Positions 25,312 to 50,395 of a stretch of 64,000 nt of DNA are shown in pieces; the first letter of the stretch is position 1, and each line of letters opens with the position of its first letter. The notes under the pieces were generated by a model. That model was not told where the DNA came from, made no database searches, and worked only from the letters and a program-made list of their open reading frames with translations. This stretch comes from Closterium sp. NIES-65 (Eukaryota; Streptophyta; Zygnematophyceae; Desmidiales; Closteriaceae). Position numbers and translations under genes: made by a program. The stretch covers positions 2,728,001-2,792,000 of the forward strand of contig CANXME010001453.1 in NCBI GenBank assembly GCA_948144175.1, read 5' to 3'.

Positions 25312-28300
25312 ATGGAGGAGGATTTCCTGCTAGATCAGCGTCGTTTTGGCGGAGATTCGAGCCAAGATTCGGCTGGACATTTTGGCCGCGGGTGTGAGAT
25401 CGAAGGCTTCGATATCATCAACACCGATACAGATTGCTACGAACCAGTTTCTCTTATTGCATCTGAAACTGTTAACGAAGAAGGGCAGCCACGTGGTGAG
25501 CTCACAAGCGTACCATCTGACGTGGCAAACCCAAGTGTTATGATGATTGGTGACGTGGAAATCCCGTTGGTGATTCCTCCAGGCTCGTCAGCTGACTCTC
25601 CCCTCAGTGGATGCGATTTAGAAGCCATTCTTGACACGTCACCAACTGACATCGATACCCTGATTGACACGTCACCATCCCCAGCAGCTCTTAGTTTTCC
25701 CTCTCCACCTAATCCTCCTTTTCAGTCATTTATCCCATCGGAGATTGAGAGGATTGAGAGGACCACACAAATCCCGTTTTACGAAAGAAATCCTCCTGAT
25801 ACAGCAGTACCGGAGAAGCTTCCTTCCAGAATTAAGAAGCTTCCATTCGGTTCTACGAACCTTCCCAGGGACACGTCACCTCCTGGCAAGATTCGCAGGG
25901 GCGATCTGACCACTCGCCTGGCGTCAATAATCCGTGAAATCTCTACCAAGCCTCGGCCGGCGGCTCGGCCCATGCCAGGCAACCGAGCCACGCAATCAAG
26001 CTCGAATAAAGGCTTGGTATCAGGCCCAGAAAGTGGTAACTCAGACACGGAATACAGTGAAGTTCAGGCAAAGGGGATGGATGATGTCGGCGTTGCACCT
26101 GACCAGACGACCATGCTTGAAAAACCAAGCATGGGTTCGGGTGTGAGAGCAGGTCAAGGGGAAGCAAGGGGGGTAGCAGAGGGGGTAGTAGTAGGAGGGG
26201 GAGGCTTACCAGCAGCTAGGGGTGATGTGCAAGGGGGGGTTGGGACAGGTACGGCATTGGAGTTGGTGGGTGTGCTGCAGAGCCTGTCTAGTGGGCTTGA
26301 ACGGTTGAAGGAGCTGCAGGGGGTGATGGAGGAGCAGCAGAGGCAGCAGCAGCAGCTGATGCTGCTGCAACAGCGGCAGCAGATGCAGATGCAGCAGGAA
26401 CAGCCGATTCAGCAGCAGCAGCAAACGCAGTGGCAACACCAGCAGCCGATTCAGCATGACCAGCAGCAGCAGCAGCAGCAGCAGCATCAGCAGCAGCAGC
26501 AGCAGACACACTGGCAGCTGCAGACAATACAGCAGCAGCGGCAGCAGGGGAACGAGCACAGGACTTTGCAGCTGGTGCAGTCAAGAGCACCACTGCAGGG
26601 GCGATTGCAGCTTCAGCAGCAGCAGCAAGGTTCCGTCCCACTCCACCAGCTTCAGACCCAGCACGTTCAACTTGTAACTCAAGACACCCTAGCCTCCCGA
26701 CTCCGCCACCATCCACCCGGCCTCACCCTCTCCTCACATCCCCCAACTTCCTCCATTTCCCCACCTTCTCACGCCCCCTCCACTCAAAACCCACCCCTCA
26801 CCACCGCTCTCCACCTCCGCCCAAACCTTCAATTCGACTTCTCCATCTTCGCAGAGTCATCCCTCCGTTGCGTGGGCGTCCCCTCACAGTCCAGCAGGGA
26901 GGAGGAGAGGGAGCGGCGCCTGCGGCAACACGTGTTGGCGCTAGCAGAGGCGCACGCAGTGGGGGACTGGGCGCTGGTGCGGAGGTGGGGGAAGAAGGTG
27001 CGGGGGGAGGCGAGTGCGGAGGGGGATGTGGTGCAGCGCGTGGCATGGTACATGCTGCAGGCTCTGGAGGCGAGGGCGGATGGCACTGCTGTTGTCAAGT
27101 GGCGAGCACCTATTGAGTTCCAAGTGAAGGTGAGAAGGTGGGGTGTTGGTTGGTGAGGGGAGGGTGGCAGCGCATGGCATGGTACATGCTGCAGGCTCTG
27201 GAGGCGAGGGCGGATGGCACTGCTGTTGTCAAGTGGCGAGCACCTATTGAGTTCCAAGTGAAGGTGAGAAGGTGGGGTGTTGGTTGGTGAGGGGAGGGTG
27301 GCAGCGCATGGCATGGTACATGCTGCAGGCTCTGAAGGCGAGGGCGGACGGCACTGCTGCTATCAAGTGGCGAGCACCCATCGAGTTCCAAGTCAAGGTG
27401 GGGCTGGGAGATGGGTTTCTGTGGAGCTGGCTTTTGGTGTGGTCCCGGCTTTTGGTGTGGTCCCGGCTTTTGGTGTGGTCCTGGCTTTTGGTGTGGTCCC
27501 GGCTTTTGGTGTGGTCCTGGCTTTTGGGTTGATTCTTGGTGTGCAGTGAGCGTTATGCTGGAATGTATGTTGGATTGAACGCCAGTAATGTGGCTCGTAC
27601 AACGTCTGGATGGTAGGGGATATGAAAGCATATCCTCAAATAGGTGTATTGGAACTTGGGGAAATATACGGTACCCTAACCTCAACACTCAACATCCACT
27701 CAAGCTCTATCGCTTACTCTCTCCCATTCGACCCCCCGTCCTACTTGCCCCCCTACAAGTGCTTCTATAGGTAGAGATTGTGTCATCGAATCTAGACACC
27801 TATTATATTTTTTCGTTTCACTATACTGACGGGAAATGTATGATATGTCATTCCAAGGAGGACATTTGAAGGTGAAAGGTCACAGCTTGGAGCAACTTGT
27901 AAACACCGTGTCAGGCACTGATACTTCTATGCCAAATCAGTAGAATCAGCTGTCAGTGGCACAGATTTTCTTCTTTATGCCAAGACATGGTGGAAATTTT
28001 GAACTTCATATTTTCTACAAAGGCAAGAGGATTTTTTTAGATGAGTACAAGATCTTGAAATTTGGTGGTCGATTCAGTAAGTTTTTCCATGTAATTTTAA
28101 AGCCTCGGGAGTTTTCGCTGTCGTATGCATTCTTGATTAAATTTGAGATCAATCTTGGTGGGACGAGAGCAAGAGAACTTGATATGACAGCGAGAACTCT
28201 CGATGCTTTAAAATCTTATTATAGAACCCACTAAACTGACCACCATATCTCAAGATCATGTACTCGCCTAGAAGATCTTGCCTTTGTAGCTAATATAGAG

Positions 28301-31300
28301 TCTCAAACATCCACCATGTTTTGGCGTACGGAAGTAAGCATGTGTTGACGGCTTATTGTACTGGTATTGCGTTCACCCGCTGCTCAAAGCCATGGTCTTT
28401 CACCTTTGATAGGTCCTCCTTGGAATGACATTTCATACATTTACCGTTAATATAGTAAAATGAGCAAAGGTAGCATAGTCTGTTTCTGAGTTCACAATCA
28501 CTTATACAGTCCATATCAATGAAATCACTGGCAGGGGGGGCAGGAATTTTCGAAACTCACCTCCAACAATAGGAAATCGAGTTGCAAAATTTGTTGCTAA
28601 GGACGGGAAGCTTGTAGCTTTGAGGCTCGAATCTACAGTGTCTCACTCTTCTTCCCTCCTTCTCTTTCCATCTCTCGCCCATTTGCCCAAGCCCTTTGTT
28701 TCTTACGCTCTCAGCCTCCCATCATCTTCCCCTTTCTCCCACGCACAGTCTGTGCCAGATGCGGTGGCTGCAGTGGGCTATCCGGACAGGACTACTGACC
28801 AACATTGTATGGTAGATCAACGGTCAAGTCTTGAGACACCACTCTGGAGGCACCTCAACACCCCTCTCGGCCTGGACTATCTCTCCTTTCCCTCTCGCAC
28901 TTGCACAAAGAGCGCAGCAGATTTGCTAGCTAGCATCAGTAGGTCACTCCCATGAGAGACCATCGTGTGATTCGACTCTCGAGGCACCTCAGAACACATC
29001 CTATCGCTCTCCACCACTCTTTACCTCCCACAGTGTGCAGCAGATGTGATAACAGCAGTGGGTTACTCCTATGAGATGAGACCAACATGGTGTGCAGGAT
29101 CAACTCTCGAGGCAAGCACCTCAAAACACCTCCCTCTATCCCTTTTTCCTCTCTTACACAGAGCGCAATAGATGTGATGGCAGCAATGGGGCGCTCGTAC
29201 GAGACCAGTATCGTGTGGATCAACTTCTAAACCCCCTCATAACACCTCCCTGTCTCTCTCAACCGCTCTTCACCACACACAGTCTGCAGAAGATATGATG
29301 GCAGCAGTGGGCCACTCCCATGAGACAAGCATCGTGTGGATCAACTTTGCCTTTGCTGCTCTCCTCCATGAGGTGCCTCGTGCTCTCTGCACCACTGCCA
29401 CATGCACGGCACCACTAGCAACACCATCTGCACCTCCAACAGCAGCAGCAGCAGCAGCAGCACCACCACCACCACCACCACCACCACAAGCAGCAGCAAC
29501 AACAGCTGCAGCAATGTCACTTTCCCCGCGCCGCATTCACGTGGTGATGTTTGGCATCATCGGTGCGCCTCAGTGGGCTTCCCTCCTCTGTCGCATCGCC
29601 ACTGCCTGTGGCTTCCCTGCTGCTGCCGCCTCTGCTGCTGCTGCTGGTGCTGCTTCTGCTTCTGCCTCTTCTGCATCTGCTCATGCTCCTCCTTCCTCTG
29701 CTGCTCCCACCCTTGCTGCGGCCACTGCCACCACGATTGCTGCCAGTCCAGGAACCAGCACCACAGCGAGTGAGCCTGGCAGCAGCAGTCGCAGCAGCGG
29801 AAGAGGCACCTGTACCATGTGTGGAGGAAGGCAAAGGAGCAGTAGCAGCATCAGTGGCAGTGGCAGTGGCAGTGGCAGTGGTGGAAGGGGGGTAGGTACA
29901 GGTAAATGCAGCAGTTGTACTCCTTTGGAGTCTGCTGCTGCTGCTCATGCTGTCCTGTTTTCAGGACGGGAAAGGAAAGTTGCAAAGAAAAGGTTTACGG
30001 CACAGCAGCAGCAGCCGCATGAGGAGGAAAATACTCGTTCTCAACATCATCACAAGCAGCGACAGCAGCAGCAGCAGCACCCCCATCCGACCCCACCCCT
30101 CTCCATCCGCGTGACAGGCATCAACGGCGGCACAGTGCAGCTCGACTCTGCCCTCGACGCCTCCACCTTCGGCCACCAGTTCTTCGGGCAGCTCGCAAAA
30201 GTTTTGGGGCTGCCCTTGACGTTTGAGATGGTGGATGTGCCTCTGGAGTCGCTGCATCCAGGCATGGTGAAGGTTCATCCGGGGGAGGAGGTGGTGGTGG
30301 TCTCCCTCTGGACGCTCATGCTCTTTCCAGATGACTCGGTTCTCCGGCACAACCCACGAGATGCCGTGCTCAAGGTGCGATGTGGTGTTTATGTTGAGAG
30401 GTTAAGGGGTGCAGGTGAGACAGAAGTTGGATAGCTTGCAAAAAACGAGGTGGTGGTTGTGGCATGCTCCCTCTGGTCGCTCATGCTCTTTTTGAGTCGG
30501 CTCAAAACATGACTCGCTCTTCATCTCTCTCCCTGTTTTGAGTCGGCTCAAAACATGACCCGCTCTTCATCTCTCACCCTGTTTTGAGTCGGCTCAAAAC
30601 ACGACCCCCTCTTCATCTCTCACCCTGTTTTGAGTCGGCTAAAAACACGACCCCCTCTTCATCTCTCACCCTGTTTTGAGTCGGCTCAAAACACGACCCC
30701 CTCTTCATCTCTCACCCTGTTTTGAGTCGGCTCAAAACACGACCCCCTCTTCATCTCTCCCCTGTTTTGAGTTGGCTCAAAACACGACCGCCTCTTCATC
30801 TCTCACCCTGTTTTGAGTCGGCTCAAAACACGACCCGCTCTTCATCTCTCACCCTGTTTTGAGTCGGCTCAAAACACGACCCCCTCTTCATCTCTCACCC
30901 TGTTTTGAGTCGGCTCAAAACACGACCCCCTCTTCATCTCTCGCCCTGTTTTGAGTCGGCTCAAAACACAACCCCCTCTTCATCTCTCGCCCTGTTTTGA
31001 GTCGGCTCAAAACACGACCCCCTCTTCATCTCTCCCCTGTTTTGAGTCGGCTCAAAACACGACCCCCTCTTCATCTCTCACCCTGTTTTGAGTCAGCTCA
31101 AAACACGACCCCCTCTTCATCTCTCTCCCTCCCTATCCTTCTCCACCGTACCCTGTCCTCCAGTGGATCCAGGCACTCAAGCAACGCCTGGGGCTGCCAG
31201 CAGAGGTTGTTTCTGTCTCCTCTCAAAACCCTTCCATTCCCTTCCACCCAAACCCCTACAAACCCCTCCAGTGGATCCAGGCACTCAAGCCCCGCCTGGG

Positions 31301-31838
31301 GCTGCTAGCAGAGGTTGACGCAGCCCTCAACAGCCCCTTCTCCCCTTCCCTTCCCTTCCATTCAATCCCAACCCCGACAAACCCCTCCAAACCCCTCCAG
31401 TGGATCCAAGCCCTCAAGCCCCGCCTTGTCCTCCTAGCAGAGGTCGACGCGGCCCTCAATGGCCCCTTCTTCCTCGCCCGCGTCCGCGAAATCTTCCGCA
31501 CCATGCTTGCTTTCATCTCAGCCGTCCATGCCACCATGCCCGATTCCGCGATCTCGCCCGTCCGTTTCATCTGGGAGGGGCTGATGTTCCGCGAGCTCAT
31601 CAACTGCGTCGGATGCGAGGGGATCCAACGGCTGATACGCGCCGAGAGGCTGGAGCAGTGGGAGGAGCGGATGGGGAGGTTAGGGTTTGAGGAGGTGGGG
31701 CTGGGGAGGGAAGCATTGGCTGCTATGAGGGAGACTACGGAGGGGAGGGATGGGAGATTTGAAGTGGTGTCGGTGGGGGGTGCAGCGAGGCTCATGTGGA
31801 AAGGACAGCCGGTGCTGGCTGTGTCTGCTTGGAGGTGA
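25312..31838 (+). CDS. GRAS-domain protein, three exons (about 1115 aa)
   Basis: Predicted exons 25312-27129, 29283-30374 and 31401-31838, all phase 0, with GT-AG borders. GRAS proteins are plant nuclear transcriptional regulators. Exon 1 (606 aa) has a long low-complexity N-terminus with a Gln-rich tract (~338-445), then leucine heptad repeat I (~515-606: QRVAWYMLQALEAR). Exon 2 has the VHIID-like core at ~689 (IHVVMFGIIGAPQW, with Met in place of the usual Asp), a ~190-residue Ala/Ser/His/Gln insertion, then the RVTGI motif of heptad repeat II. Exon 3 carries PFYRE-like sequence and the SAW end (WKGQPVLAVSAWR, TGA). Exon borders are repeated in tandem. Donor choice in exon 1 is uncertain because three copies exist. 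The family call is firm. The subfamily is not recognised. Confidence 0.85.
27035..27400 (+). repeat. 134-bp tandem triplication of the exon 1 end and its splice donor
   Basis: Copies anchored at 27041, 27175 and 27309. The first two are near identical. The third carries substitutions and ends AAGGTGGGG instead of AAGGTGAGA. Each copy holds the last ~30 codons of exon 1 plus a GT donor. The unit is not a multiple of three, so joining copies would change the frame. Confidence 0.92.
27424..27532 (+). repeat. 18-bp tandem repeat in GRAS intron 1
   Basis: About six copies of CTTTTGGTGTGGTCCYGG, with C/T variation near the end of the unit. Confidence 0.85.
27813..28464. repeat. ~650-bp foldback (inverted-repeat) element in GRAS intron 1
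   Basis: The left arm 27813-28127 is closely matched by the reverse complement of 28181-28464, with a loop of about 53 bp. Arms share long stretches such as GTCATTCCAAGGAGGAC, differing by scattered substitutions and a few indels. It may be a foldback/MITE insertion or a source of hairpin RNA. No target duplication was identified. A 92-codon open frame across it has no recognisable product. Confidence 0.85.
28749..29282 (+). repeat. Four decayed tandem copies of the GRAS exon 2 start
   Basis: Copies begin near 28749, 28912, 29033 and 29162, and the exon itself at 29283. Each is preceded by an AG-ended pyrimidine-rich tract and carries versions of SAEDMMAAVGHSHETSIVWIN. Copies 1-4 hold stops or frame changes soon after. 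Spacing is 121-163 bp. Confidence 0.88.
30489..31130 (+). repeat. 46-bp palindromic minisatellite in GRAS intron 2
   Basis: About 14 head-to-tail copies. Each holds the inverted repeat TTTTGAG-TCGG-CTCAAAA followed by a pyrimidine-rich CCCCTCTTCATCTCTC stretch. Copies differ by single bases, and two lack two bases. Confidence 0.93.
31164..31400 (+). repeat. Two decayed tandem copies of the GRAS exon 3 start
   Basis: Copies start at 31164 and 31272, with the exon at 31401. Each opens with CCAG|TGGATCCA and a version of the codons for WIQALKPRL..LLAE, and the intron tract CCAAACCCCTCCAG is repeated too. Only the third copy stays open into the conserved domain. Confidence 0.9.
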
Positions 31839-31891
31839 TTGGTGCATGTGAGGGAGGGAGGTGATGGTGCAAGCCAGGGCCGTCACTCGTG

Positions 31892-31919
31892 TCTCAAATG
31901 TTGCACATTGATGTGATAG
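31892..31919 (+). repeat. 5' LTR of element E, first 28 bp
   Basis: TCTCAAATG... matches TGTCAAATG... of the 3' LTR, and is interrupted after GATAG by element H. It continues at 35342-35443. Confidence 0.9.
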
Positions 31920-32157
31920 TGTTAAGATACTAGCGTTTAGAGGGCTTAGGAGCCATAGCTAGTGAGAGTCTTAGTAGCTTAGGTTTAGTTGAGTTCGAGG
32001 GTGAGGAGAGTGTCGAGAGAATTGTGAAGGAGAATGAGGGCTTCACTATAGGTTTGCAGAAACATATAGCAAAGTAACAAAGAAGGTGCACCACCAGACA
32101 AAGTTTATAATAACTACAGTAACTACAGCTACAGGCAGTTACAGATATATTCTGACA
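31920..32157 (-). repeat. 3' LTR of element H
   Basis: 238 bp. Unrelated in sequence to the short LTRs of A, C, D, E and F. Confidence 0.93.
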
Positions 32158-32524
32158 CTCCCCCATAACTGCCTGCAGCAGAAGCTAATGCAGAGACACC
32201 CCCTGAAGGGGTACACCAAGCGCAGCAGAAGGAGAGGGCAAGTGAGGAGGAGGGACTATATGAGGAGAAGCTGCTGGCTCCAAGGTGGCTGCTTCCTAGA
32301 ACCTTCCTCAGTCCTCCAACTCCCCCTTCCACACTCCTTGACAACCCTAGCACCTCTCCCCCAGCTCCCCCACACCCTCACACCCACCCCCCCCCCCAGC
32401 GGCAGCTGCAGCAGTGGGAGAGAAAGGAGGAGGAGGGGAAGGGGATCACACACACCCATCACCCCCATACCCGCCACCCCCATAGCCTCCGTTCCACGGC
32501 TGCACGCGCAGCAAGGAGACGAAG

Positions 32525-32548
32525 AAGGGGGGGGGGGGGGGGGGGGGG
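32525..32548 (+). repeat. Poly-G run
   Basis: About 20 consecutive G on the + strand inside element H. The exact length may be a sequencing or assembly approximation. Confidence 0.8.
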
Positions 32549-32559
32549 CAGGGGCGACA

Positions 32560-33110
32560 GAGCAGAACAGAGCGCACGAGGGCGCAGGCAGAGCAGAGCG
32601 CACAAGGGCGCGGGCAGCAGCAGGGCGCACGAGGGCGCGGGCAGCAGCAGAGCGCACGAGGGCGCAGGCAGAGCAGAGCGCACAAGGGCGCGGGCAGCAG
32701 CAGGGCGCACGAGGGCGCGGGCAGCAGCAGAGCGCACGAGGGCGCAGGCAGAGCAGAGTGCACAAGGGCGCGGGCAGCAGCAGGGCGCACGAGGGCGCGG
32801 GCAGCAGCAGAGCGCACGAGGGCGCAGGCAGAGCAGAGCGCACAAGGGCGCGGGCAGCAGCAGGGCGCACGAGGGCGCGGGCAGCAGCAGAGCGCACGAG
32901 GGCGCAGGCAGAGCAGAGCGCAGAAGGGCGTGGGCAGCAGCAGGGCGCACGAGGGCGCGGGCAGCAGCAGGGCGCACGAGGGCGCGGGCAGCAGCAGGGC
33001 GCACGAGGGCGCGGGCAGCAGCAGAGCGCACGAGGGCGCAGGCAGAGCAGAGCGCACAAGGGCGCGGGCAGCAGCAGGGCGCACGAGGGCGCGGGCAGCA
33101 GCAGACGGCA
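32560..33110. repeat. Tandem repeat block 1 of element H
   Basis: Units of about 27 bp of the form GCGCACGAGGGCGCGGGCAG, with a higher-order period of about 80 bp. Confidence 0.88.
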
Positions 33111-33990
33111 ACGGGCGGCACAGGCACGGGCAGCAACGGGCGGCAACAGGCAGCACAGGCACGGGCAGCAACGGGCGGCAACAGGCAGCACAGGCACGGG
33201 CAGCAACGGGCAGCACAGGCACGGGCAGCAACGGGCGGCAACGGGCAGCACAGGCATGGGCAGCAACAGGCAGCAACAGGCAGCACAGGCACAGGCAGCA
33301 ACAGGCAGCAACGGGCAGCACAGGCACGGGCAGCAACAGGCAACAACGGGCAACACAAGCACGGGCAACACAAGCACGGGCAGCAACGGGCAGCACAGGC
33401 ACGGGCAGCAACGGGCAGCACGGGCACGGGCAGCAACAGGCAGCAACAAGCAGCACAGGCACGGGCAGCAACGGGCGGCAACGGGCAGCACAGGCACGGG
33501 CAGCAACGGGCGGCAACAGGCAGCACAGGCACGGGCAGCAACAGGCAGCAACAGGCAGCACAGGCACAGGCAGCAACAGGCAGCAGCGGGCAGCACAGGC
33601 ACGGGCAGCAACGGGCGGCAACGGGCAGCACAGGCACGGGCAGCAACGGGCGGCAACGGGCAGCACAGGCACGGGCAGCAACGGGCGGCAACAGGCAGCA
33701 CAGGCGCGGGCAGCAACAGGCAGCACAGGCACGGGCAGCAACGGGCAGCAACGGGCAGCACAGGCACGGGCAGCAACGGACAGCAACGGGCAGCACGGGC
33801 ACAGGCAGCAACAGGCAGCAACAAGCAGCACAGGCACGGGCAGCAATAGGCAGCAACAAGCAGCACAGGCCCGGGCAGCAACGGGCGGCAACGGGCAGCA
33901 CAGGCACGGGCAGCAACGGGCGGCAACAGGCAGCACAGGCACAGGCAGCAACAGGCAGCATAGGCACAGACAGCAACAGGCAGTACAGGC
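33110..33990. repeat. Tandem repeat block 2 of element H
   Basis: Units of GGCAGCAACGGGCAGCACAG type, irregularly mixed (A/G variants), over ~880 bp. The period is close to a multiple of three, which yields long Cys/Ala/Pro- or Gly/Gln-rich open frames in several phases. Confidence 0.88.
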
Positions 33991-34029
33991 ACGGGCAGCC
34001 GTACCGAGTCCAGGAGCAGCGGTGCATAC

Positions 34030-34530
34030 AGCTGTGGGGTCGGCGCCGTGGGCTGCTGCTGGGGCGGCTGCTCCAGGCGCTGGGGCGGCTGCTCCAGGCG
34101 CTGCTGCTGCTGGGGCGGCCGCTGCAGTGGCGACGGCTCCAGGGGCTGCTGCTGTTGGGGCGGCGGCTCCAGGGGCTGCTGCTGCTAGGGTGGCTGCTCC
34201 AGGCGGTGCTGCTGCTGGGGCGGCTGCTCCAGACGCTGCTGCTGCTGGGGCGGCCGCTGCAGTGGCGGCAGCTTCAGAGGCTGCTGCTGTTGGGGCGGCG
34301 GCTCCAGGGGCTGCTGCGGCTGGGGCGGCTGCTCCAGGCGCTGCTGCTGCTGGGGCGGCGGCTCAAGGGGCTGCTGCTGCTGGGGCGGCTGCTCCAGGCG
34401 CTGCTGCTGCTGGGGCGGCCGCTGCAGTGGCGGCGGCTCCAGGGGCTGCTGCTGTTGGGGCGGCGGCTCCAGGGGCTGCTGCTGCTGGGGCGGCTGCTCC
34501 AGGGGCTGTTGCTGAGGTGCAGGGGCGGCG
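34030..34530. repeat. Tandem repeat block 3 of element H
   Basis: GCTGCTGCTGGGGCGGCTGC-type units, 27-30 bp, about 17 copies. Confidence 0.85.
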
Positions 34531-35098
34531 CTGGTGCAAGATAGGCCCGCGCTCGGCTGCAACGCTGGCGCGGGCGCAGGTGAGGCAGAGGCGGTGGCCA
34601 GGGGGGAGGGCGCCGCGACGAGTAGGAACGGCGCCCAAGGGGTGCCGCTACGAGTAGGGGCGACGCCCCAGGGGCGCCGCGACGAGAAGGGGCGGCGTCC
34701 AGGGGGCGCCGCGACGAGCAGTGGCGACGCCCCGCGGGTCCCGGCGTGGCGACACGACGAGCAAGGCGACGCCGTGCGGGTCCTGCAGGGGCGTCGCGAC
34801 GAGCAGGAGCGGCGACGCCCGGGTCCCGCAGGTGCGTCGCGACGAGCATGAGCGGCGCCTCGCAGAGCGCCGCGAAGTGGAGGGTACGGGCGGGCAAAAC
34901 AGGCCCGCCCGTGGACGTGAGGCAGGCGCGCATGCGGCGTGAGGGCAGGCCACGCGCGGGGCAGGAAGACGCCGCGCGCCCAGGGCGCACGGCGGGCAGA
35001 AAATCGCCGTGCGCCTCTGCCGCGCACCCGAGGCGCACGGCAAGACGATAGGCAGCGGAAGCAGGAAGGCAGCAGAAACGTACCTGCTCTGAATACCA

Positions 35099-35336: not shown

Positions 35337-35341
35337 GATAG

Positions 35342-35457: not shown

Positions 35458-35489
35458 GGTTAGATCCTCGTTCGTTTTTAGCTAGCCTC

Positions 35490-39200: not shown

Positions 39201-42155
39201 TTTGACGAGTCCGTGTCCTACTACACCCGGTACCCCTGTCGAGGTCTCCCGGTACCCCCTCCCCCTCTTTTCCTCGCACCCTCTCCTCCTCCTGCTCCCG
39301 CTCCTCCGGTACCCCCGCCCCCCCCTGGTCCTGCCCCGTCTGGTGTGTCCCACGCTACCCCTCTCCCCTCGGTCGCGCGTCAGGTAGTGTCTCCCTCCCC
39401 GCAGTCCTCCTCACAGTCCCCTCAGCAGCCTTCGGCACTTCCGCGATAGGTTACTGTGGACTCTGTTGGTGTTGGAGCTGGAGGTGCAGCCGCTGGGGGT
39501 GCTCGCTCGCGGGGTACTGGAGCTGGAGGTGCTGGCGCAGGTGGCGCTAGCTCTGGGGGTGCTGGAGCTGGGGGTGCTGGCGCAGGTGGCGCTAGTTCTG
39601 GGGGTGCTGGAGTTGGAGGTCCTAGCACTGGCGGTGCTGATCCTGGGGGTGCTGAGTCTGAGGAGGCTGGAGCTGGAGACCCTGGTTCTGCGGAGTCCAC
39701 TCCGCCTCCCCACCGCCACGACACGCGTCTCCAGGCTGCCCGTCGGCGTGAGCGTGAGGAGCAGGAGCGGTTGGAGAGGGAGCGGCATGAGCTGCGGATG
39801 CTGGACCTTCTGGAGCAGCAGCAGGAGCAGCAGCGGCAGCAGCAGCAGCAGCCGCCGCCGCAGCTGCAGCAGCAGCAGCCGCAGCCGTCGCCGCAGCCGC
39901 AACAGCGGCAGCCGCAGCCGCCCCCGCAGCTTCCTCTAGAGCGGCAGTTGTTCCCACCTGTGAGTGGCCTGCGGGCCCTTGGCCTTTCCTCCTCTTCTTC
40001 TGTCCGCTCCCCGTCTCCTCCTGTGTTTGTTCCTCCATTGCCTCCTCCTGACGACCGTCCGGCGGTCTAATCTTCTCCTCCTCCTCAGTCTCCTCCTCCT
40101 TCTGTCCGTCGCAACTTGATCACACGTTGTCCTCCGCGTGCTCGTCACTCGTCCCCTGTTACTGACCTCCACACTGCCCTCCTTTGTTCGTCTCGTCGTC
40201 GTTCTCCTTCTCATGTGTCCGTTCTCCCGTCTCCTCCTCCGTCCTTTGTCACAGCCCCCCCCACTCCTATCTCTGACTACTACCGCGCTGTTCGTCCTGT
40301 TGCCGCACGTGTCCTCGCCACTCTTGTCACCGACTCTCGTTTCCCTCCGTCGTCTGCCTCGGCTCTCACTGCCGCTGTCGCTGAGTTTGCTGCCGCCAGT
40401 CGCCTTGACTACGCCACCCGTGTGGTGCCAGCTCCTCCCTACCGTCCTCTGTCTGTCGGGGGTGGGTTTGCCCTTGGCTGTGACGTCCTAGAGGACAGAG
40501 AGTCTGAGCTGGAGTACTGGGCAACCGCTTCTCCCTCTGTGTGTGCCATGCTACTCTCCCCTGAGGGAGACCCCGACGCCCTTGACATACCGACTCCTCG
40601 CACTTATCGCGAGGCAGTGTCAGGGGCGTGGGCCTCTCAGTGGAAAGCGGCTATGGACTCAGAGTTGGCATCTTGGAGGTCCACAGGCACCTACGTCGAC
40701 GCAGTTCCCCCTCCCAGGGCGAACGTAGTCGATGGCATGTGGCTCTTCAAGGTGAAGCGGCCGCCTGGAGCACCGCCGGTGTTCAAGGCGCGCTACGTGG
40801 CTAGGGGCTTCAGTCGGCGTGAGGGAGTTGACTTCTTCCAGACCTTCGCCCCGACCCCAAAGATGACTACTCTTCGGGTGTTACTCCACATAGCAGCGCA
40901 GCGAGACTACGAGCTGCACTCCCTCGACTTCTCCACTGCGTTCCTCCAGGGCCGACTGCACGAGGAGATCTGGCTGCGTCGTCCTCCTGGCTTCACTGAC
41001 ACCTTCCCACCTGGGACCCAGTGGAGCCTGAGGCGACCAGTCTACGGTCTCCGACAGTCGCCTCGTGAGTGGCACGACACTCTTCGCTCCACACTTCGTG
41101 ACCTTGGGTTCAGCCTGTCCTCCGCCGACCCGTCGCTGTTTGTTCGAGCGGGTTCTACTCCTTTCTTTATCCTTGTCTACGTCGACGACTTGGTGTTTGC
41201 CACAGCAGACAGGGCACCCCTGGCTCAGGTGAAGTCCAAACTGCAGAAGAGACACAAGTGCACTGACCTGGGTGAGCTGCAGCGTTACCTTGGCTTGCAG
41301 ATCACCCAGGACAGAGTCGCTCGCACCATCACACTGACGCAGTCACACATGGTGCAGCAGGTCCTTCGGCGGTTCGACTTCCAGTTCTCCACCACACAGC
41401 CCACTCCTCTTGCTGTTGACCACAGACTCACGGGCCCCTTTCCTGACGAGCCCTTTGAGTCCAGTGGACCCTACGCAGAGCTGGTGGGCTGCCTCATGTA
41501 CCTGATGACTTGTACTCGACCGGACCTCGCCTTTCCCCTCAGCATCCTTTCTCGCTTTGTTGCGACTGGGAGACACCGCCCCGTCCACTGGACAGCTGCT
41601 GTGAGGGTGGCAAAGTACCTGGCGACTACATCAGGCATGGGGCTTGTGCTTGGAGGGACTCAGCCAGTGGTGTTGACTGGTCACTGTGACTCTTCCTACG
41701 CTGACGACGTGGAGACTCAGCGCTCGAGTCAGGGTTACTGCTTCAGTCTGGGAGCTGGTGCTGTGTCGTGGAGGTCTACACGGTCGTCGTCTGTGGCTAC
41801 TTCCAGTGCAGAGGCAGAGATCTACGCGGGTGCCATGGCGGCACAGGAGCTTCGCTGGTTGACCTTCTTGCTCGCAGACCTTGGTGAGCGGCCTCGCTCT
41901 GCTCCGACCTTGTACGCTGACAACAAGGCCATGATCCTCCTGTGTCGAGAGCCTCGACTGGAGAGCAGAGTGAAGCATATTGACATGAGGTACTTCCTCC
42001 TGCGAGAGCTGCAGCGACGCGGTCAGGCACGCCTGGACTTTGTGGCCTCAGAGGCCAACACTGCAGACGTCTTCACCAAGGCCTTGGCGCTTGGTGATCA
42101 CCACAGGTTGTGTGTGCAGTTGGGGCTTGTTGAGGTAGGCCCTCGGTTACTGTAG
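36261..42155 (+). pseudogene. Element E gag-pol polyprotein with four nonsense codons, no frameshift
   Basis: One frame of 1965 codons, closed only by TAA 38601, TGA 39042, TAG 39447 and TAA 40068 before the natural TAG at 42153. Order: gag 36261-37080, Gly linker 37110-37260, Gln/Pro region, CTHWC...CLCGRDDHSAARC zinc-binding-like region near 37480-37560, protease DSGAS near 37880, HHRLGH near 38355, integrase 38560-38880 (HSDRGGE, GVAERR), Gln-rich linker 39800-39950, RT with YVDD near 41180, RNase H 41670-42110. Element F is the closest relative in the window. Confidence 0.9.
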
Positions 42156-42361
42156 TCCTGCTGCTTGCTCTGCTCGTTGTGCTTTGTATTTATATCCTAG
42201 TGAACTCTTGAACTGGCCTTGTGGCCGCTTGCTTGCGCTCGGAATTTGTGTGGTGTCCTTGATATCCACCCTGAGCTTGCCTTGTTTCTTGCTTTGACTG
42301 GTCTTGTGACCGTTTGTTCACCTTACTTGCTTTGATGCCCCTCACTTAGCCTATGGGGGTG

Positions 42362-42491
42362 TGTCAAATGTTGCACATTGATGTGATAGGTCGCAGTGAG
42401 TTGCACTCTAGGGGGGTACAGCTTCTAGGGTTGCTTATTTGTACCCCATTCGTTTCTATTCCTCACATTCCGTTGCATTCCTATTCTAAGA
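42362..42491 (+). repeat. 3' LTR of element E
   Basis: 130 bp, preceded by the polypurine tract and followed by TCGTG. Confidence 0.94.
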
Positions 42492-42496
42492 TCGTG

Positions 42497-43197
42497 TCAC
42501 ATGTCGGCTGAGCTAAATGTTGAAGCCTTTTCATTAGCTGATGTGTGTTTTCCATGGTGGGTTCAGGGAGGTTTGCTCGAAATGAATGAATGATGTGAAA
42601 ACATCCTGCATTGTGTTTCTTTCTTCATTCTAATTATTACTTACTGATGAGTCACCAACACACGTTAATCTCCTTCACATGTGCAGATGTCCATCGAAAA
42701 TATATCATCTAACATTTGTCAACGTTGACAACTGTATATTCGGTGTTTTGTATCGAGTTCCTCTCGGGGAAGCACTCTTGAGGAGCCAGCAACGGTTCTT
42801 TACTTTCGGCTACCCAATCCCAAGGTCGTGTTATGGTTCCCGTCCGCCATTTTGCGGGAGGATAGACTTCCTCCTCAGCCTCTTGGTAACCTGACGAAGG
42901 AAGGTAGTGGAAAGAACTCTCGAGCGCTCGACCGAGGATTACGGCGTGAAGACCTTTTTGCCTGACCGTGACTGTACGCAGTAACGAGTCACGCGATTTT
43001 ATCAATGCGTGCTTGCCATTGGTCCTGTTTGCGCTCGTCTAGAATCTGTAGCGGTGTAGCAAGCGAGTAGCGGAGTATAGAAGGCATCAGTCTCACGACA
43101 AGGAATTGCGAGGAGTGCTTCTTCTTTTCTAACTGAACGATCAATTCGGCTAGCAGCTAGGCATCAAGCTATCGTAACGCGACAGGAACTTACGACG
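42497..43197. other. Intergenic stretch between E and the PPP4R2 gene
   Basis: About 700 bp of ordinary-composition DNA. The left part is the original sequence downstream of the GRAS gene, displaced 10.6 kb by E. The right part should hold the PPP4R2 promoter. No ORF or repeat is supported. Confidence 0.4.
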
Positions 43198-46100
43198 ATG
43201 GCCGTGTCGTCTCTGCCGGCCGCAGCGGCGCTTACGGCGTTTCGGAACCGGTGCGTGACGCGTCGGGATGGGATGTACATTCTTGTAATAATGTTGCGGT
43301 TACTATGTTTCGTGATATCGAGTACATAGCCATGCGTGTCGCACTGACCTTACGCACTGAGCTCATTTCTGAGTCCACTCAATTCATACATAGCCATGAC
43401 CTTACGAACTGAGTGCACTGAGTGTTGAACAAGGCAGTCGTGCGTAGGTGCAGTGCCAAGCCGCTCCTTAAATAACTGCTTAGACCGAGCGAGTCACCGG
43501 GTATTTTGTCCAAGCACTGATAAGTTTTTGGAGTCAACCCAAAAGTAGTCTCCGAGTTTTCTAATTCAAATCCTCCTGTTCGCCGTCTCGTCACCCGTTA
43601 CTTGGCAAGCCACCTGGCGACAGAGAGTTATCAGACTATCAGAGCCGATTACGGAAATCTCGCATCCTGCATCAGAGCCCTTGCACTTTTCATCGGTCCA
43701 TTCACTGGCAGATCGCCTGGCGACAAAGGGAGCGGAGGGAGAATTCTATCGGCTATCCGATAGCGGAGCTGACTGCGTGAAGACTTCTCAGACACCACAT
43801 CCCTCTCGGCTGTCCACTTCCCAGTTCTCCCATTCTCCGTCCCTTTCGTTACCTGCAGGTCGCCAGGCGAGAGGGAGCTGTCCCCCGAGCTCAAGGCAAT
43901 TCTGGAGGTCACTGCCGTCACAGGCACCGTCTGGTGGGTGGCAGGTTCTGTCTTCTAATTGACGGATTTTGCTAGCTGTGACACATATTCTGTTTGCTGG
44001 GTGATTGCCCGGGAGTCGGGTTCCGTTTGGTGGTTATCGAAGCCTGAAGGGTGAGTTGCTGGAAAGAAGGTGTTATATGAGTTCAAGGCAATATTTGGAG
44101 TCACTTTGCTGTGGCACCATTTGCTAGATAATTCCGTTTATTGTCTGACGGAATCTGTTACTTTGGTGACGGGTCCATGTTGCTCCTATCGAAACCTGAC
44201 CAGTCAATTGGTACTGAGATGTGTGTGGGCGGAGTGATTGATGCTGTTAGATGAATGACGGAGTCTGTCTGGTGAGCGACGGAATCTGATTGGTGGAGGA
44301 TGGATTCTGTCTGCTAAATGACTGGATTACGAGATGGATGGCGGAATCTGCTGGTTGATAACAATGCGTTACTTTCAGCTCCAGCAAATTCTCCCTCCAT
44401 GAACTCCGTCCCCTGGCCACCTTCACTTACCCCTCCTCCCCTCCTCCTCTCAAAGTTCCTCCTCCTTCATCTGGTCTGGTTCTTCCCCACAACCCCCCTC
44501 CCACATCCCCCCCCCTCGCCGGTTGATGTGTAGGCATGACTGGGAGTCCGTGAGAGAGCTGCTGGGGTTCACAATCTCTCAGGTATGGCTGCAGGGACCC
44601 TACTTGCAAAATGCATCATCTACTACATGTTTCGATCCTGCTGCTTAAGCTTTCAACAATACTGCTGCCCTTCTTCGCTATGAGTTTGGATGCTGGGGTT
44701 CACAATTTCTCAGGTATGGCTGCAGGGACGAAATCTGCAGCACGTGACTGTCACATCACACTGCATTACATCGTGCTATTACACCATTTTACACGTTGTG
44801 GTTTCAAGTACATCGTTCACCAGAAACAGATTGCAATGCACACGTTTAAATGCGTCATCTGCAAATTCTGTTTGTTCTTCGAACCAGGTACTGCAGGGGT
44901 GTGGTGTGGAGGACGGTGTGAAACGGAGGGGGAAAAGGAGGGCGGAAAGGTGTATATCACGGGAGCTGGTGGCACTGCCTGTGTTAAACAGTGTTGTGCC
45001 ACTGAAAGCGTCTCACCTCCCCTCACTATCTCTAATGTATCTCCACTCTCTCCCAATCTCCCCTGCCACTTGTCAGGTCCTCAAGTACAGGACAGAGTGC
45101 GTGGCAGGGGTTACAGAGCGCGTGGCAGGGGTGGGTGGGTCCCACTCGCCCACTAGACTCCACAATGTGTGCCCCTCCGCAATGCTAGAAGGACCCTCCT
45201 TGCTGGCCTCGCCCCTCCCATGCCCCCCTGCCGCCCCTCAGGTCCTGGAGGAGTACGAGACAGAGCGCGTGGCAGGGGTGGTTCCGCCTCGCTCTGTAAA
45301 GCTCGTGGCAGGCATGATTCAGGCTAGAGATCTCCTCCCTGTCGTTGTGTTGCCCCTCCCACCCTCCACCCGCCACCCCTCAGGTGCTGGAGGAGTACGA
45401 GACAGAGCGCGTGGCAGGGGTGGGTCCGCCTCGCCCGCTGCCGTCAGGGGAGACGTTTGCGGAGCTGAGTGAACGCATTCTCTCCTGTACGTGTACTCAC
45501 TCTCCTTGTGTTTGCTTATGCACTTTGACATGGTACCACTATGCATGCATCATGCATGTGCGCTGCTATGATAAAGGCCTTGTCTCACTCTCCCGTCTCC
45601 TCCCTCCCTCCCTCCACCAACTCCTTCAGCACGGTCCTGGATGCAGTTCCTAAACACAGAGAGGAGGCGACCCTCGTCTTTGCTTCATCTGTCGTCCCTC
45701 TCCGTTTCTCCCTTCTCCCTTCTTTCCCCCCTCTCCCCTGCTCCCCTACCGCCCTTCTCACCCCTACCCCCCTCTTCCCTTTCCCTCTCTCTCACCTCTT
45801 CCCCCTCTTCCCCCCTCTTCCGTCTCTCCCCCCTCCCGTCTCCCGTCTGTGCCTTTCGTCCATCCCCACAGACAGATTTTGACACGTTAGCAGATGGGTC
45901 TGTGTTTTTGCTCCCTTCACCATTCAGTGCATTTGTGTGTGTAGCGCCCCTCCTCTCTGCTTTGCTCTCCCCTGATCCCCCCCTCTCCGTCCCCCCACTC
46001 TTTCACCACAGACCTTGAGGCATTTTTGAGAATACTCAGAAGCTGTATTGGTGCGACTTTTGAGAATTCTCAAAAGTCGCTCTTGCCTGATCCCCCCCTC

Positions 46101-47801
46101 TCCGTTCCCCCACTGTTTCAACACAGACCTTGAGGCATTCACAGACGGGCCACCTTTCACCATTCAGCGCATCTGTGAGGTTTGTGCTTGTACTGTCCCT
46201 GCTGCAAATTCACCTGTTTTTCCTCCTGATGCAGATTCACCTATTTCTTAACTTTCCTACAAATCCACCTCTTTTTTTCTCTTGGCTGTCTCCCAGGTGC
46301 TTCTCAATCCCCGAGCCACCTACACAAATCTCAACCGTGTTGCCTTTGCTCTTGAGAAGGTCCGTCTGCCTCGACCCATCCCACTGTTCGCACTCTCTTT
46401 TCTTCCTGAGTTGACTTTTGATCGACTCAAAAGTCAACTCAAAAGTCAACTCGACCCAACCCACTGTTTCCACCCACTGTTCGCACTCTCTTGTCTTCCC
46501 CTTCTCGTCCCCGACCTGCCTATTGCACTGGGATTTCTGCTCGTGCACCCTTCTCCTCCATTCGTGCTTTTTTGCACCGACAGTGCCTGCTCCTCTTTCG
46601 CCCATCCCTCCCCCAACACCCCACATCTCCTCAACTTTCCCTCTCACTGCCCCTTTGTCCCTCCCTCCCTCCCTCTCTCTCCCTCTCCCTCCTTCCCTTT
46701 CTTTCCCTCCCCCCTCCCCTCTGCAGCTGCTCCTAGTGACCTCCTCCGCCCCTCCCCCTACAGCCCCGTTCCCCGCCCTCCCCCTCCCCCCCCTCCCACC
46801 TCCACCGCCTCTACCGCACCTCCCCCTCCTCCTCCTCCCCCTCCTCCCTCCCTCCTCCCTCCCAAACCTCCCCACCGCCCTCAAAGCCCCAGCTTCCGAA
46901 CCAGGGAGGCAGGGCGAGGCAAGAGGGGGGAGCAGCAGGACAGGCGGGGGGGGGTGGCGAGGGGGGTGGAGGGAAGGGGGATGAGGAGGGAGGGGAGGGG
47001 GGAAATGCAGCAATGGAGACGGACGAGAGGGGGGCTGGCAGGCCAGGTTCCCCGGACATCGCCCCACACTCGCCTGAATTTGCGGGGTTCTTTCGAGAGG
47101 TGGTGGTGGAAGAAGCTGCGATGGAACTGGGTGGGGCTGGTGGGGGCAGTGGGGGTGGTGGGGCGGGTGTTGGGACGGTGGAGGGTGGGGCTAGGAGCAG
47201 GGGAGGAGCCCGGGATGAGGGGGTGGGTAGTGGCACTGCTGGTGGTAGTGGTGGGAGCAGCGGTGGGAGTGGCGGTGGCGAGGGAAGTGGTGGGGGCGAT
47301 GCGGGCAGCAGGGGGAGAGGAGCGAGTGTTGGTAGGGAGGGTGGGGTGGAAGCGGGGAGGATGGATGAGGGAAAGGAGGATGGGGAGAAGGAGGAGAGGG
47401 GTGGGTCTGGAAGGGGTGCTGGGGAGAAGGGCGAAGGTGGGAATGAGAGAGTGAGGGAGGGAGGGGACGAGGAGATGGAGGAGGAGGAGGAGGCGAGCAA
47501 GTGGTTGGTGGATAATCCCCCTCCTGTTGCCTTTGGACCCGTGTCACCCACGAGGGAGGAAAGCAGGGAGGGGAGGAGGGAGGAGGGGAGGGAGGAAGAG
47601 AAGGGGGAGGAGGAGATGAAGGGGGAAGGAGGGGGTGACATGAAGGTGGAAAGGGGGGGTGATATTCGAGTGGAGTGTGAGGAGAAGGCAGTAGAGGGGG
47701 AGGAGGATGGGGATGGTGGGAGTGGGGAGGGAGAGGACTTGGCGGGACAAGGGCAGGGGAAGGAGGGAGGGGAGGGTGAGCAGATGAGTGTAGATGGATG
47801 A
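43198..47801 (+). CDS. PPP4R2: Protein phosphatase 4 regulatory subunit 2-like protein
   Basis: Predicted exons 43198-43250, 43859-43933, 44534-44582, 45384-45486, 46127-46179, 46298-46360 and ~46764-47801; phases agree at every join. PPP4R2 is the scaffold/regulatory subunit of the PP4 phosphatase (DNA repair, nuclear functions). Conserved segments: LSPELKAILEVTAVTG (exon 2), WHDWESVRELL (exons 2-3), VLEEYE (exon 4), DGPPFTIQRICE (exon 5), LLNPRATYTNLN and ALEK (exon 6). The last exon encodes a Gly- and Glu-rich acidic tail, as expected for the family. Its start is uncertain: an upstream acceptor at 46727 would add LLLVTSS, which fits the family, but leads into another frame. Predicted length is about 477 aa. 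Most exons have decayed tandem copies in the adjoining introns. Confidence 0.78.
43596..43858 (+). repeat. Decayed copies of PPP4R2 exon 2 start
   Basis: Two upstream copies, at about 43601 and 43711, carry versions of GGCAG(G/A)TCGCC(A/T)GGCGA(C/G)A and the following GAG codons. The exon itself starts at 43859. A diverged copy of the exon's end (GAGTTCAAGGCAATATTTGGAG) lies downstream at about 44079. Confidence 0.75.
44678..44713 (+). repeat. Decayed copy of PPP4R2 exon 3 end
   Basis: GCTGGGGTTCACAATTTCTCAG|GTATGGCTGCAGGGAC repeats the exon 3 end and donor region at 44561-44597 with a single-base change in the exon part. Confidence 0.85.
44888..45383 (+). repeat. Three decayed copies of PPP4R2 exon 4
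   Basis: Starts at about 44888, 45077 and 45242, with the exon at 45384. The 45242 copy keeps GTCCTGGAGGAGTACGAGAC and most of the exon, then diverges after CCGCCTCGC. The older copies are progressively worse. Each follows a CAG acceptor. Confidence 0.88.
45872..46126 (+). repeat. Two decayed copies of PPP4R2 exon 5
   Basis: Copies start near 45872 and 46012, with the exon at 46127. The 45872 copy still reads like ..TTCACCATTCAGTGCATTTGTG. The 46012 copy begins ACCTTGAGGCATT, identical to the exon. The intron tract GATCCCCCCCTCTCCGT is copied along with it. Confidence 0.87.
46053..46080. repeat. 28-bp perfect palindrome in PPP4R2 intron 5'
   Basis: Two 14-base arms with no spacer, centred on GAATTC; each arm contains CTTTTGAG. 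Intron (or ghost-exon) location just before exon 5. Confidence 0.9.
46409..46452. repeat. Interrupted palindrome in PPP4R2 intron after exon 6
   Basis: GAGTTGACTTTTGA, a five-base spacer, then TCAAAAGTCAACTC; an 11-12-base piece of the right arm is repeated once more. Confidence 0.85.
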
Positions 47802-48970
47802 GTGTAGATGGGGAGGGCGATGTGGAGAGGGATGGTACAGTCTGAATCTAGCCGATAAACATGGAATAGCTCATTCATTCAAACATATGAACAAATCATC
47901 CATTCAATGTGTTTCCACTTTGTTGATATTGCAGACAAGAAATGTTGTGGCTGGCAATGGGGGATCTTATTTAATGACCAGAGGTGTTAGCTACTTGATC
48001 AAATTATGGTTGTGGTGCAAAAGTTGTTACCTTATTGTCAATAGCATCAATCAAATGAGACCCATCTTTGTCCGCAAATTACTACACTGCATATTTTACC
48101 CACGCTTCAGCACGGGTAAAGTGTTTACAAAAGTTTCACATCACTCACACCGCCTAGTCAGCACGAGTGACGTGCCAGCTACCGGATCCACTTTCTGGCG
48201 TGTCTCACCACCCTTATGACGCGGAGATTGTACTTCGGGTTCCGAGCCTCGCATGCTGTCCAGCAAAGCAAACAACGCAGCAAAAGTAACTTCAGCTATT
48301 CGTTAATCTCCAGCTTTGTAGGAATACGAACCAAAAACATCTGCCTCGGTGAGGAGACCCGAGCCAAACAGAATATCCACTTTTCGTTTTTCACTCTCGA
48401 CGAACCTGTCTTGTGCTCACATGCAATCATGAATGCACCCAGCCTTCGAACCTAGCCTGTAGTTTGGCGTTTGGGCTGGCTGTTGCTGAACTTTCATATT
48501 TGCCCGGAATTTCATTACATCAGGCTCATTGCTTCAAGCATTGCGTGTAATTAATAGTTCTTCTGCGCACATAAATCATCATTGAAGGTTCAGCCGTTTT
48601 GTTTTGCCTTTTTACAATGGCAGCTCTACAGTTTCGGCTTTGACACCTCCCCTAGCTTTGACACAACCAGACCTGCTCCAACCTCTCTCTTCTTCTGGGT
48701 CTCTATTTCCACCAACTCATCTACATTTTATTTTTAGCTTGAGTCCTGACATAAAGACCCCCTCGTTGTTAGCTGCTCTCCTTACCACCGCTTTTCAGTT
48801 ACACCTGACGCTCAGACACTCGGTGTTGTTTTTCTGTTCGTCTTTCCTGGCAGCCACACGACCTCGTCCCCGTTAGCGAACTTGCTGTCTGGTTGATTAG
48901 CGCTTACCACATTTTTTAGTTCCCGTTCTAGACTATTGTGGGTGATTGCTTGTCATTCCTGAATCTGCTC
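47802..48970. other. Intergenic stretch, no gene seen
   Basis: About 1.2 kb between the PPP4R2 stop and the next gene. It would contain the 3' UTR of the first and the promoter of the second. Composition is lower-GC than the genes. No conserved frame or repeat. Confidence 0.4.
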
Positions 48971-50156
48971 ATGGGGAGCCAAGCCCTACCGTTGTGCGGT
49001 TTCACGCGATCGCTTGTTCCTGCGAGATTAGACTCGGCCAATATCGATTCCAATGCATCAAGAACGACTCAACAACAGGGTAGAGTAGTTTGTATGCTTT
49101 CGAGTGACGGCACTTTCCCTCCAAGGAACAAACCCAAGTCGCTCGAGCTCCCCCGAGCCGTCGCACATGGCTTCCATCCTTCCTCCCACGTAAGCAGCAG
49201 CTTTCTCATCATTATATAACTGGTAAAAAACTCTCGGATGCGTGACCCTAGTAAATATGCATCGTCGTTATCAATTCGCCTGACATTGTTGCCCTGTTCA
49301 ACCTTTGTTTTTCCGGAACAAACTCTCGTTTATATGTTGCTAATACTCTCCCTAACTTCTCATCATCGTAATCATTCCGCAGGATCTGAATGAGGAGGAG
49401 AAGCAGCGGCTGATTGCGGAGGAGATTGTGAAGATCGAGCAGCAGACTAGAGCGAGGGAGGAGCAATTGAAGCGGGCTGCTCTTAAAGCCCACTTGGACC
49501 ACGAGCTTCGGTTCGGCAAGATAATGTTCTCTCAGGTGCGTTCTAACTTGCGTTTTGTGTTAACCTGCTCTGTCACTGCGCATATGTTGATGACATTTCA
49601 CGCGTTTCTACTTGATCCGGTCTGATTTACGACGTACTCACGATGCTGCTATGCTTACTTGCTTTGTTTTGTTCCCTCCGTGTTAATTTCGACGCAACAG
49701 GAGAAATACACTACGGCCATTGCGCATTTCGACAAAGTACTCGACCAATCAGAGGACGACACGTATCACCACGGCGAGGCCTCCCTCCAGAAAGCCGCGT
49801 GCCTCGATAAGCTCGGCTCGCACGACGAAGCGCGTCGTCTGTACAAATCCCTCTGCCATTTCCGCGGCGCGGACCACCACATCAAGAGACGCGCCGCGCA
49901 AGCTTTATTCGAAGGCGATTCGCACAATCCTTCGAAGCAGCGGCAGAAGGAGCAGGCTCAGAACGATAGGCCGTCGCTACTAGATGACTACATGTACAAA
50001 ATGTTTCTCACGGGCTTTGGAAATTACACGTTGAGTGGGAGAAAGCAGGAGGAGTCGCGACAGGAGCGGATGCTGATGCAGGCACTGCCCTGGATGCTGG
50101 TGCTCATGGCGCCTGCTATGGTCGTAGGGCTGATGCTGGCCAAGGGAGGAGAGTGA
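48971..50156 (+). CDS. TPR-like protein with C-terminal membrane helix, probably plastid-targeted (275 aa)
   Basis: Exons 48971-49189, 49383-49535 and 49701-50156, phase 0 at both joins, GT-AG borders. The start ATG 48971 gives a Ser/Arg-rich, acid-poor N-terminus that looks like a transit peptide (~1-55). Residues ~74-124 form a charged helix (DLNEEEKQRL...). Residues ~125-195 resemble tetratricopeptide repeats (YTTAIAHFDKVL, GEASLQKAACLDKLG, DEARRLYKSL). Residues ~250-272 are hydrophobic (MLVLMAPAMVVGLML), ending in a short tail. The product would be a membrane-anchored, helical-repeat protein, likely of the thylakoid or envelope. The precise family member is not recognised. A decayed copy of its last exon follows at 50228. 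Confidence 0.75.
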
Positions 50157-50227
50157 TTATGGTGAAGGGGGAGGGTGACTTTGGCTAAGGGTCCCGCCTC
50201 CTGAGTATGTGTGCCTAAGGTGGAAAG

Positions 50228-50395
50228 GGATGGTAATTACGGGGTTGAGTGGCTGTGGCTACGAGCGGATGCTGTTGCGAGAGCAATGCTGCTGGAGCAA
50301 TGCTGCTGCTGGCTCTCCCATGGATGCTGGTGCTTATGGCGCCTGCAATGTTGTTGGCCTGGTGCTGGCGAAGGGGGGTGGTGAAGAAGCCATGT
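50228..50395 (+). repeat. Decayed tandem copy of the last exon of the TPR-like gene
   Basis: GGTAATTAC..GGTTGAGTGG, GAGCGGATGCTG, CCATGGATGCTGGTGCTTATGGCGCCTGC and GGTGCTGGCGAAGG repeat, in order, elements of 50020-50150 about 209 bp upstream, including the membrane-helix codons. It is frame-broken and beyond the stop codon. Confidence 0.88.

Follow-up and report, generated by a model that had tools for sequence, protein, structure and literature searches.

In Closterium sp. NIES-65, stretches of about 20-160 bp within genes have been directly duplicated, and many of these duplications cross exon-intron borders. The reading that we favor, with about even confidence, is that these duplications come from error-prone repair of staggered breaks and survive because splicing would hide them. 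The origin of new introns and exons is a long-standing question, and few cases have been caught in the act. Here, one Closterium genome provides many copies of splice borders of graded age, together with near-identical and distant paralogous loci for comparison.

Gene models and genomic context

The window is a stretch of 64,000 nucleotides (C1450:2728001-2792000) from the NIES-65 assembly (label G000; 874,075,685 bases in 2400 contigs). The models of its GRAS, PPP4R2, and TPR genes were all built by hand (Table 1), and protein searches with the three genes returned mainly Closterium proteins. The starts of GRAS exons 2 and 3 are the same in proteins P0013 and P0014 as in our model; the 3' end of the PPP4R2 model is uncertain. 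In P0008 from Closterium Yama58-4, PPP4R2 and TPR form one fused annotated protein, which is probably a model error.

Contig C1584 carries the three genes in a second assembled copy, with 98.9-99.75% identity over the genes. An assembly artefact was rejected, as C1450 and C1584 both contain the same GRAS exon-1 array and the alignments exceed those of dinucleotide shuffles.

Table 1. Genes, copy families, and palindrome sites (window coordinates unless stated otherwise)
Feature	Position	Strand	Remarks
GRAS gene	exons 25312-27129, 29283-30374, 31401-31839	+	Pfam PF03514; joins match NIES-53 P0014 and NIES-54 P0013
GRAS exon-1-end family	27033-27166, 27167-27300, 27301-27424	+	134-bp unit of exon sequence, GT donor, and intron flank
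GRAS exon-2-start family	28708-28821, 28845-28977, 28987-29105, 29114-29226, functional 29216-29347	+	
GRAS exon-2-tail family	30285-30332, truncated copy 30447-30491	+	copy in the paralogue includes the donor
46-bp minisatellite	30490..31130	+	palindrome TTTTGAGTCGGCTCAAAA or near variant in 14 units
GRAS exon-3-start family	31111-31207, 31229-31344, functional 31353-31473	+	one common open frame
PPP4R2 gene	43198..47802; exons 43198-43249, 43859-43933, 44534-44582, 45384-45486, 46127-46179, 46297-46359, 46727 onward	+	Pfam PF09184
PPP4R2 exon-2 family	43560-43655, 43689-43733 (weak), functional 43813-43982, 44079-44170	+	
PPP4R2 exon-3-end family	44560-44598, 44691-44729	+	38/39 identical, not abutting
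PPP4R2 exon-4-start family	45050-45154, 45184-45292, functional 45323-45439	+	
PPP4R2 exon-5 family	45815-45961, 45964-46024, functional 46068-46203	+	
Palindromes between two PPP4R2 exon-5-acceptor copies	46051-46082, 46024-46041	+	first with one mismatch (perfect 46053-46080), second imperfect
PPP4R2 direct copies	46370-46406, 46450-46499	+	flank palindrome 46407-46441
TPR gene	exons 48971-49189, 49384-49535, 49702-50157	+	Pfam TPR_19; P0001 96%
TPR terminal-exon family	50049-50184, downstream copy 50281-50429	+	first includes the stop codon
HPAT-type glycosyltransferase gene	C1450 downstream of the window, stretches L020-L021		Pfam PF23452

Duplicated splice borders in the window

The 20 splice borders of the three genes, each with 60 bp on either side, were compared by local alignment with 900 bp on each side and with 300 dinucleotide shuffles. 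Border-crossing copies were found at nine borders (p<0.01), three of four in GRAS and six of twelve in PPP4R2, and at none of the four TPR borders. The copied borders are donor 1 and acceptors 2 and 3 of GRAS, and acceptor 2, donors 2 and 3, acceptors 4 and 5, and donor 5 of PPP4R2. At two other PPP4R2 borders, copies lie nearby without crossing the border. The first-pass annotation had claimed that all three host genes carry copies of their own exons, which is true of GRAS and PPP4R2 borders, but in TPR only the region of the stop codon is duplicated. Similarly, the proposed unit of an exon part, its splice site, and an intron flank describes the border copies in GRAS and PPP4R2 but not the terminal TPR copy, which is genuine and spans the stop codon instead of a splice site. 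Nearby direct copies composed of exon sequence, a splice site, and an intron flank bear the mark of internal tandem duplication.

Alignment against shuffled controls reproduced the reported three copies of the GRAS exon-1 end, five of the exon-2 start, and three of the exon-3 start, as well as two of the PPP4R2 exon-3 end and three of exon 5. Two counts were only partly recovered. Among the three copies claimed for the PPP4R2 exon-2 start, the upstream one is significant (p 0.0024) but the weak one in Table 1 fails the test, and for exon 4 three copies stand but a fourth (44903-44942) scores 22, less than the average of 27.9 given by shuffles of this border. On the other hand, two copies were absent from the original list: the GRAS exon-2-tail family, whose truncated copy ends where the 46-bp minisatellite starts, and the downstream copy of the PPP4R2 exon-2 end (p 2e-5).

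The spacing of neighbouring copies, originally given as 108-209 bp, measured 103-162 bp in most families; it was 190 bp at the end of PPP4R2 exon 2 and reached about 230-240 bp in TPR. Copies abut, with unit length equal to spacing, in the GRAS exon-1, exon-2-start, and exon-3-start families. Non-abutting copies are found in the PPP4R2 exon-3-end family (39 bp at 131-bp spacing) and in the families split by palindromes. In the acceptor families (45050-45439 and 29216-31473), the intron-side edge of a copy is often about 46-61 bp before the AG, and branch-point distance or tract composition may be the cause.

The suggested rule that one copy per family stays open and the rest decay did not survive the analysis. 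All three GRAS exon-3-start copies share an open frame (31092-31835), and copies 2 and 3 of the exon-1 array are readable as in-frame 69-nt exons. By eye, the AG is retained in all four extra copies of the GRAS exon-2 start. Several window copies are not decayed, and several have lost their splice site.

Predicted use of the copies

In the GRAS proteins P0013, P0015, and P0017, extra copies are taken as coding. The predicted protein P0017 from NIES-64 uses 27195-27263 and 27329-27397 as two in-frame 69-nt exons. P0015, predicted from NIES-65, has an in-frame intron at 27153-27291 that is about one repeat in length and leads from the tail of one copy to the next. Over the exon-1 array, each of these proteins differs from the window in one residue. 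The exon-1 peptide is present in three copies in NIES-54 P0013 and in one copy in NIES-53 P0014. The predicted proteins from nearly identical loci disagree on the splicing of the exon-1 array.

We consider it highly improbable that the extra copies are functional, serving as cassette exons or alternative splice sites under selection. The in-frame options in P0017 and P0015 and the common frame of the GRAS exon-3 copies are what such a role would produce, but the conflict between predictions from nearly identical loci and the loss of splice sites from several copies are not. PPP4R2 also argues against it, as P0007 (NIES-65) and P0008 use exons 2-5 identically and both skip the extra copies; P0007 reads through intron 6, including the palindrome and its flanking copies. 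The Closterium annotation combined Augustus with transcript assemblies (PMC10407611), and therefore a gene model is no RNA proof. Caution is warranted for automatic gene models in these close relatives of land plants, which can absorb copies as exons.

Excess of copies at borders

The distribution of local copies was assessed in 100-bp tiles of the window (p<1e-3). Matches were obtained for 16/32 border tiles, 50/115 intron tiles, 9/91 exon tiles, 2/15 exon-end tiles, 6/82 spacer tiles, and 172/943 tiles of TE or low-complexity DNA. The 18-bp and 46-bp minisatellites account for 16 of the 50 intron matches. In the arbitrarily placed stretches L022 and L023, 49/198 and 77/198 tiles matched, with spacings that look like those of minisatellites, which argues against any claim that tile matches occur only in genes.

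Seven of the 12 families in the window gene spans cross a border, compared with a mean of 1.41 under random placement (P 5e-5). A possible but doubtful explanation is that there is only random tandem duplication, by slippage or unequal crossing-over, with purifying selection, and that palindromes have no role. No targeting is needed here: borders would stand out because border duplications are protein-neutral and one copy is conserved. We simulated such a filter with duplications placed uniformly, those inside exons selected against, and the exon copy decaying more slowly. Border and whole-exon families then made up 24-30% of the total, or 14-18% if border events were half tolerated. In a post hoc grouping of few events, the observed 7/12 exceeds this share (P 0.035), as does the 7/10 obtained without the two minisatellites (P 0.0096), and random duplication is further contradicted by the lack of tile matches in Copia-type pol stretches (0/79) and in three spacers (0/60), a fourth spacer having 4/30. 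It agrees with the abundance of tandem arrays (133 TRF rows in the window) and with the identity of GRAS exon-1-end copies 1 and 2 over 120/120 bp, which would be expected if unequal exchange or conversion had occurred recently. The exon parts of copies are slightly better conserved than the intron parts (744/883 vs 491/632 positions; higher in 9 of 15 copies). The splicing filter accounts for part of the border excess, and not clearly for all of it.

Recurrence outside the window

The pattern is not limited to the three window genes. In the HPAT-type glycosyltransferase gene, border-spanning copies are present at 12 of 20 borders, a proportion that also counts against random duplication alone, and partial copies at four of the other eight. 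GT or AG is retained in 20 of the 25 border-spanning copies. The stretch L019-L021 was chosen by position alone; the gene was then singled out by its dense tile matches (125/198 in L020, compared with 11/198 in L019) and therefore is not a random gene.

Another example is a GRAS paralogue, present in two copies with 75.9-76.3% identity to the window GRAS over the largest aligned piece. All three of its tested borders, donor 1, acceptor 2, and donor 2, have border-spanning copies. The donor-1 unit is 162 bp in the paralogue and 134 bp in the window gene, and acceptor 2 has three copies compared with five. At donor 2, the copy in the paralogue retains the donor, whereas the window copy is truncated and ends at the palindrome array. 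Exon 3 was not found in the paralogue stretches examined, and the paralogue thus may be broken. In the donor-1 tree, the functional and extra copies of the paralogue group together (support 0.75), apart from the three window copies. In the acceptor-2 tree, one extra copy of the paralogue groups with two extra copies from the window (support 0.97). Thus, some duplications look older than the paralogue split, and others newer. In P0016, the NIES-65 protein of the GRAS paralogue, the first GRAS unit contains a local near-repeat QVRWRHFKHQVRWRQFMRQ, with none at the like place in P0018-P0020; possibly, this is another exon-border copy absorbed by the gene model.

The idea of a standing process that amplifies exon borders can therefore be retained as far as recurrent local duplication is concerned, given the HPAT-type gene and the GRAS paralogue. 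An aim at borders is not established, since splicing may render border duplications harmless and a conserved exon keeps copies recognizable.

A palindrome family at copy edges

A palindrome with the core TTTTGAG-N4-CTCAAAA is present in 30,327 exact copies genome-wide, and the reversed pattern in four. The centre is self-complementary in 27 of 47 distinct sites, often TCGA, AATT, GCGC, or ACGT. The arms covary outside the core: the first outer position is complementary in 74% of cases vs 36% with shuffled partners. Outer positions 2, 4, and 5 show a similar excess, and positions 3, 6, and 7 show none.

The window contains palindromes at 30490-31103, 46024-46082, and 46407-46441; at copy edges, PPP4R2 has two palindrome sites and GRAS has an array. 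Counted locally with up to two mismatches in the core, palindromes number 18 in the three gene spans (12,320 bp; 14 are units of one array), 18 in the 20 kb of L020-L021, 1, 2, and 10 in L025, L026, and L027, respectively, and 1 in 40 kb around the paralogue. None are present in the remaining 50,512 bp of the window examined or in L019, L022, L023, L024, and L028. The core is frequent in sampled genes and missing from most sampled transposon-rich DNA.

Flanking duplications often stop at palindrome edges, which counts against random duplication. Compared with random positions in the same loci, duplications whose edges both lie 12 bp or less from the palindrome were seen at 6/15 sites in the HPAT-type gene (28/300 controls), 3/8 in L025-L027 (57/900), 11/24 in 12 other distinct loci (69/720), and 10/16 in the window (31/300), the last being mostly the GRAS array. 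The 12 loci were picked for their resemblance to window palindromes and derive from 20 places plus L034. With near-identical loci unmerged, these places give 33 sites, of which 29 have a flanking duplication at p<1e-3 (200/330 controls) and 19 have both edges within 15 bp (51/330). The four first-listed exact core places on contig C6 all have a flanking duplication (79/400 controls), three of them with both edges within 12 bp (26/400); the same loci have another site that contains a mismatch and is just under the threshold. Control positions had any duplication in 142/300, 195/900, 342/720, and 200/330 cases. DNA near palindromes is thus itself rich in duplications, and the palindrome signal lies in the edge position.

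The window and the HPAT-type gene together have 40 copy junctions, of which 8 hold a palindrome; its absence from the other 32 is in line with random duplication. The HPAT-type gene contributes 6 of 29 (2.06 at random, P 0.008), whereas the window value of 2/11 is not above chance (0.81, P 0.19). Palindromes mark a minority of visible events: either only some events involve them, or palindromes decay.

The palindrome could also be a mobile element whose staggered cuts of tens of bp produce long and variable target-site duplications. Its inverted repeats in many copies are typical of MITEs and introners, and in several cases the copies touch the palindrome on both sides (49 bp in L046, 85 bp in L051, 21 bp in L056, and 46370-46499 in the window). 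However, no fixed-length short target-site duplication was detected at the sampled palindromes. A transposase usually gives a target-site duplication of fixed length. Here, the aligned duplications extend over about 21-94 bp (flanks of 120-150 bp compared), sites L040 and L042 have none, and the outer arms vary between sites yet remain partly complementary. We therefore regard a mobile element as unlikely.

Origin and fate of the duplications

In the favored scenario of faulty break repair, palindromes would fold into hairpins, which would either induce staggered breaks or cap them. When the overhangs are filled in, the segment between the nicks would be duplicated, and a palindrome might or might not stay behind at the junction. 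Duplications inside exons would mostly be eliminated by selection. A duplication across a single splice site could spare the protein, since splicing can still use one site of the pair. The unused copy would then decay within the intron, staying recognizable longer thanks to the conserved exon that it matches, and from time to time a copy would likely turn into a cassette exon or new intron. Faulty break repair thus likely keeps supplying spare splice sites, a possible source of new introns. Against this scenario stand the majority of junctions that show no palindrome, the border share above the prediction of the splicing filter, and TPR, where no splice border is copied.

A stronger proposal, which we make tentatively, is that the palindrome family, with its tens of thousands of copies, drives the evolution of gene structure, each event copying 20-100 bp of the flanking gene, borders included. 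If this is true, genes constantly hold spare donors, acceptors, and half-exons that feed new introns and cassette exons. The palindrome might also serve as a trackable marker of duplication events.

Related processes are known from other systems. In the potato RdRp gene, a short tandem duplication over an intron-exon boundary, splice signals included, resulted in a new intron (PMC4974935). The Closterium duplications likewise cross the boundary and carry splice signals. Unlike this single event in one gene, they comprise seven families in two window genes, plus more in a neighbour and a paralogue, and any splicing at them is a prediction. Duplication of an AGGT segment as a source of introns was proposed in the Rogers model and by Hellsten et al., 2011 (both cited in PMC4974935). 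The predicted P0015 intron resembles this model in being about one repeat in length, with ends from two copies of the same sequence. It differs in that the Closterium unit contains a pre-existing splice border.

Repair of adjacent nicks gives tandem duplications in mouse cells, and plant work is cited in the same paper (PMC5730883). The Closterium direct duplications are similarly tens of bp long; the mouse products were made with Cas9 nickases, whereas break repair in Closterium is deduced from scars. Short palindromes were described as mutation hotspots, with breaks as the proposed route, in a green algal plastome (PMC7043297). As in these chlamydomonadalean repeats, many short palindromes in Closterium lie in non-coding DNA and are tied to local indels. 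Unlike the organelle repeats, they belong to a nuclear assembly, with 30,327 copies of one core, and at sampled sites their flanking direct copies measure about 21-94 bp. Amoebophrya introners also combine inverted repeats with direct repeats and are spread in gene introns, but there the direct repeats measure 3-5 nt, and the intron is the element itself (PMC7789003).

The Closterium genome paper reports variation in gene copy number, and its available text mentions neither exon-border copies nor palindromes; six assembled strains with transcriptomes have been published (PMC10407611). Among literature titles, with most subscription papers outside coverage, none describes exon duplication across borders on this scale, or a palindrome family of this kind, in the nuclear genome of a streptophyte.

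Other repeats in the window

Rfam and tRNA scans of the window gave zero matches. GRAS intron 1 contains an imperfect, foldback-like inverted repeat of about 650 bp (66%) at 27813-28463. A 31-bp pair (31889-31919 and 42359-42389, 30/31 identical) brackets a stretch with Copia-type pol. Its first member is located about 50 bp beyond the stop codon of GRAS, a stop past which P0015 from NIES-65 continues. The spacer after TPR contains a direct repeat, with copies at 51108-51197 and 51564-51647, about 450 bp apart.
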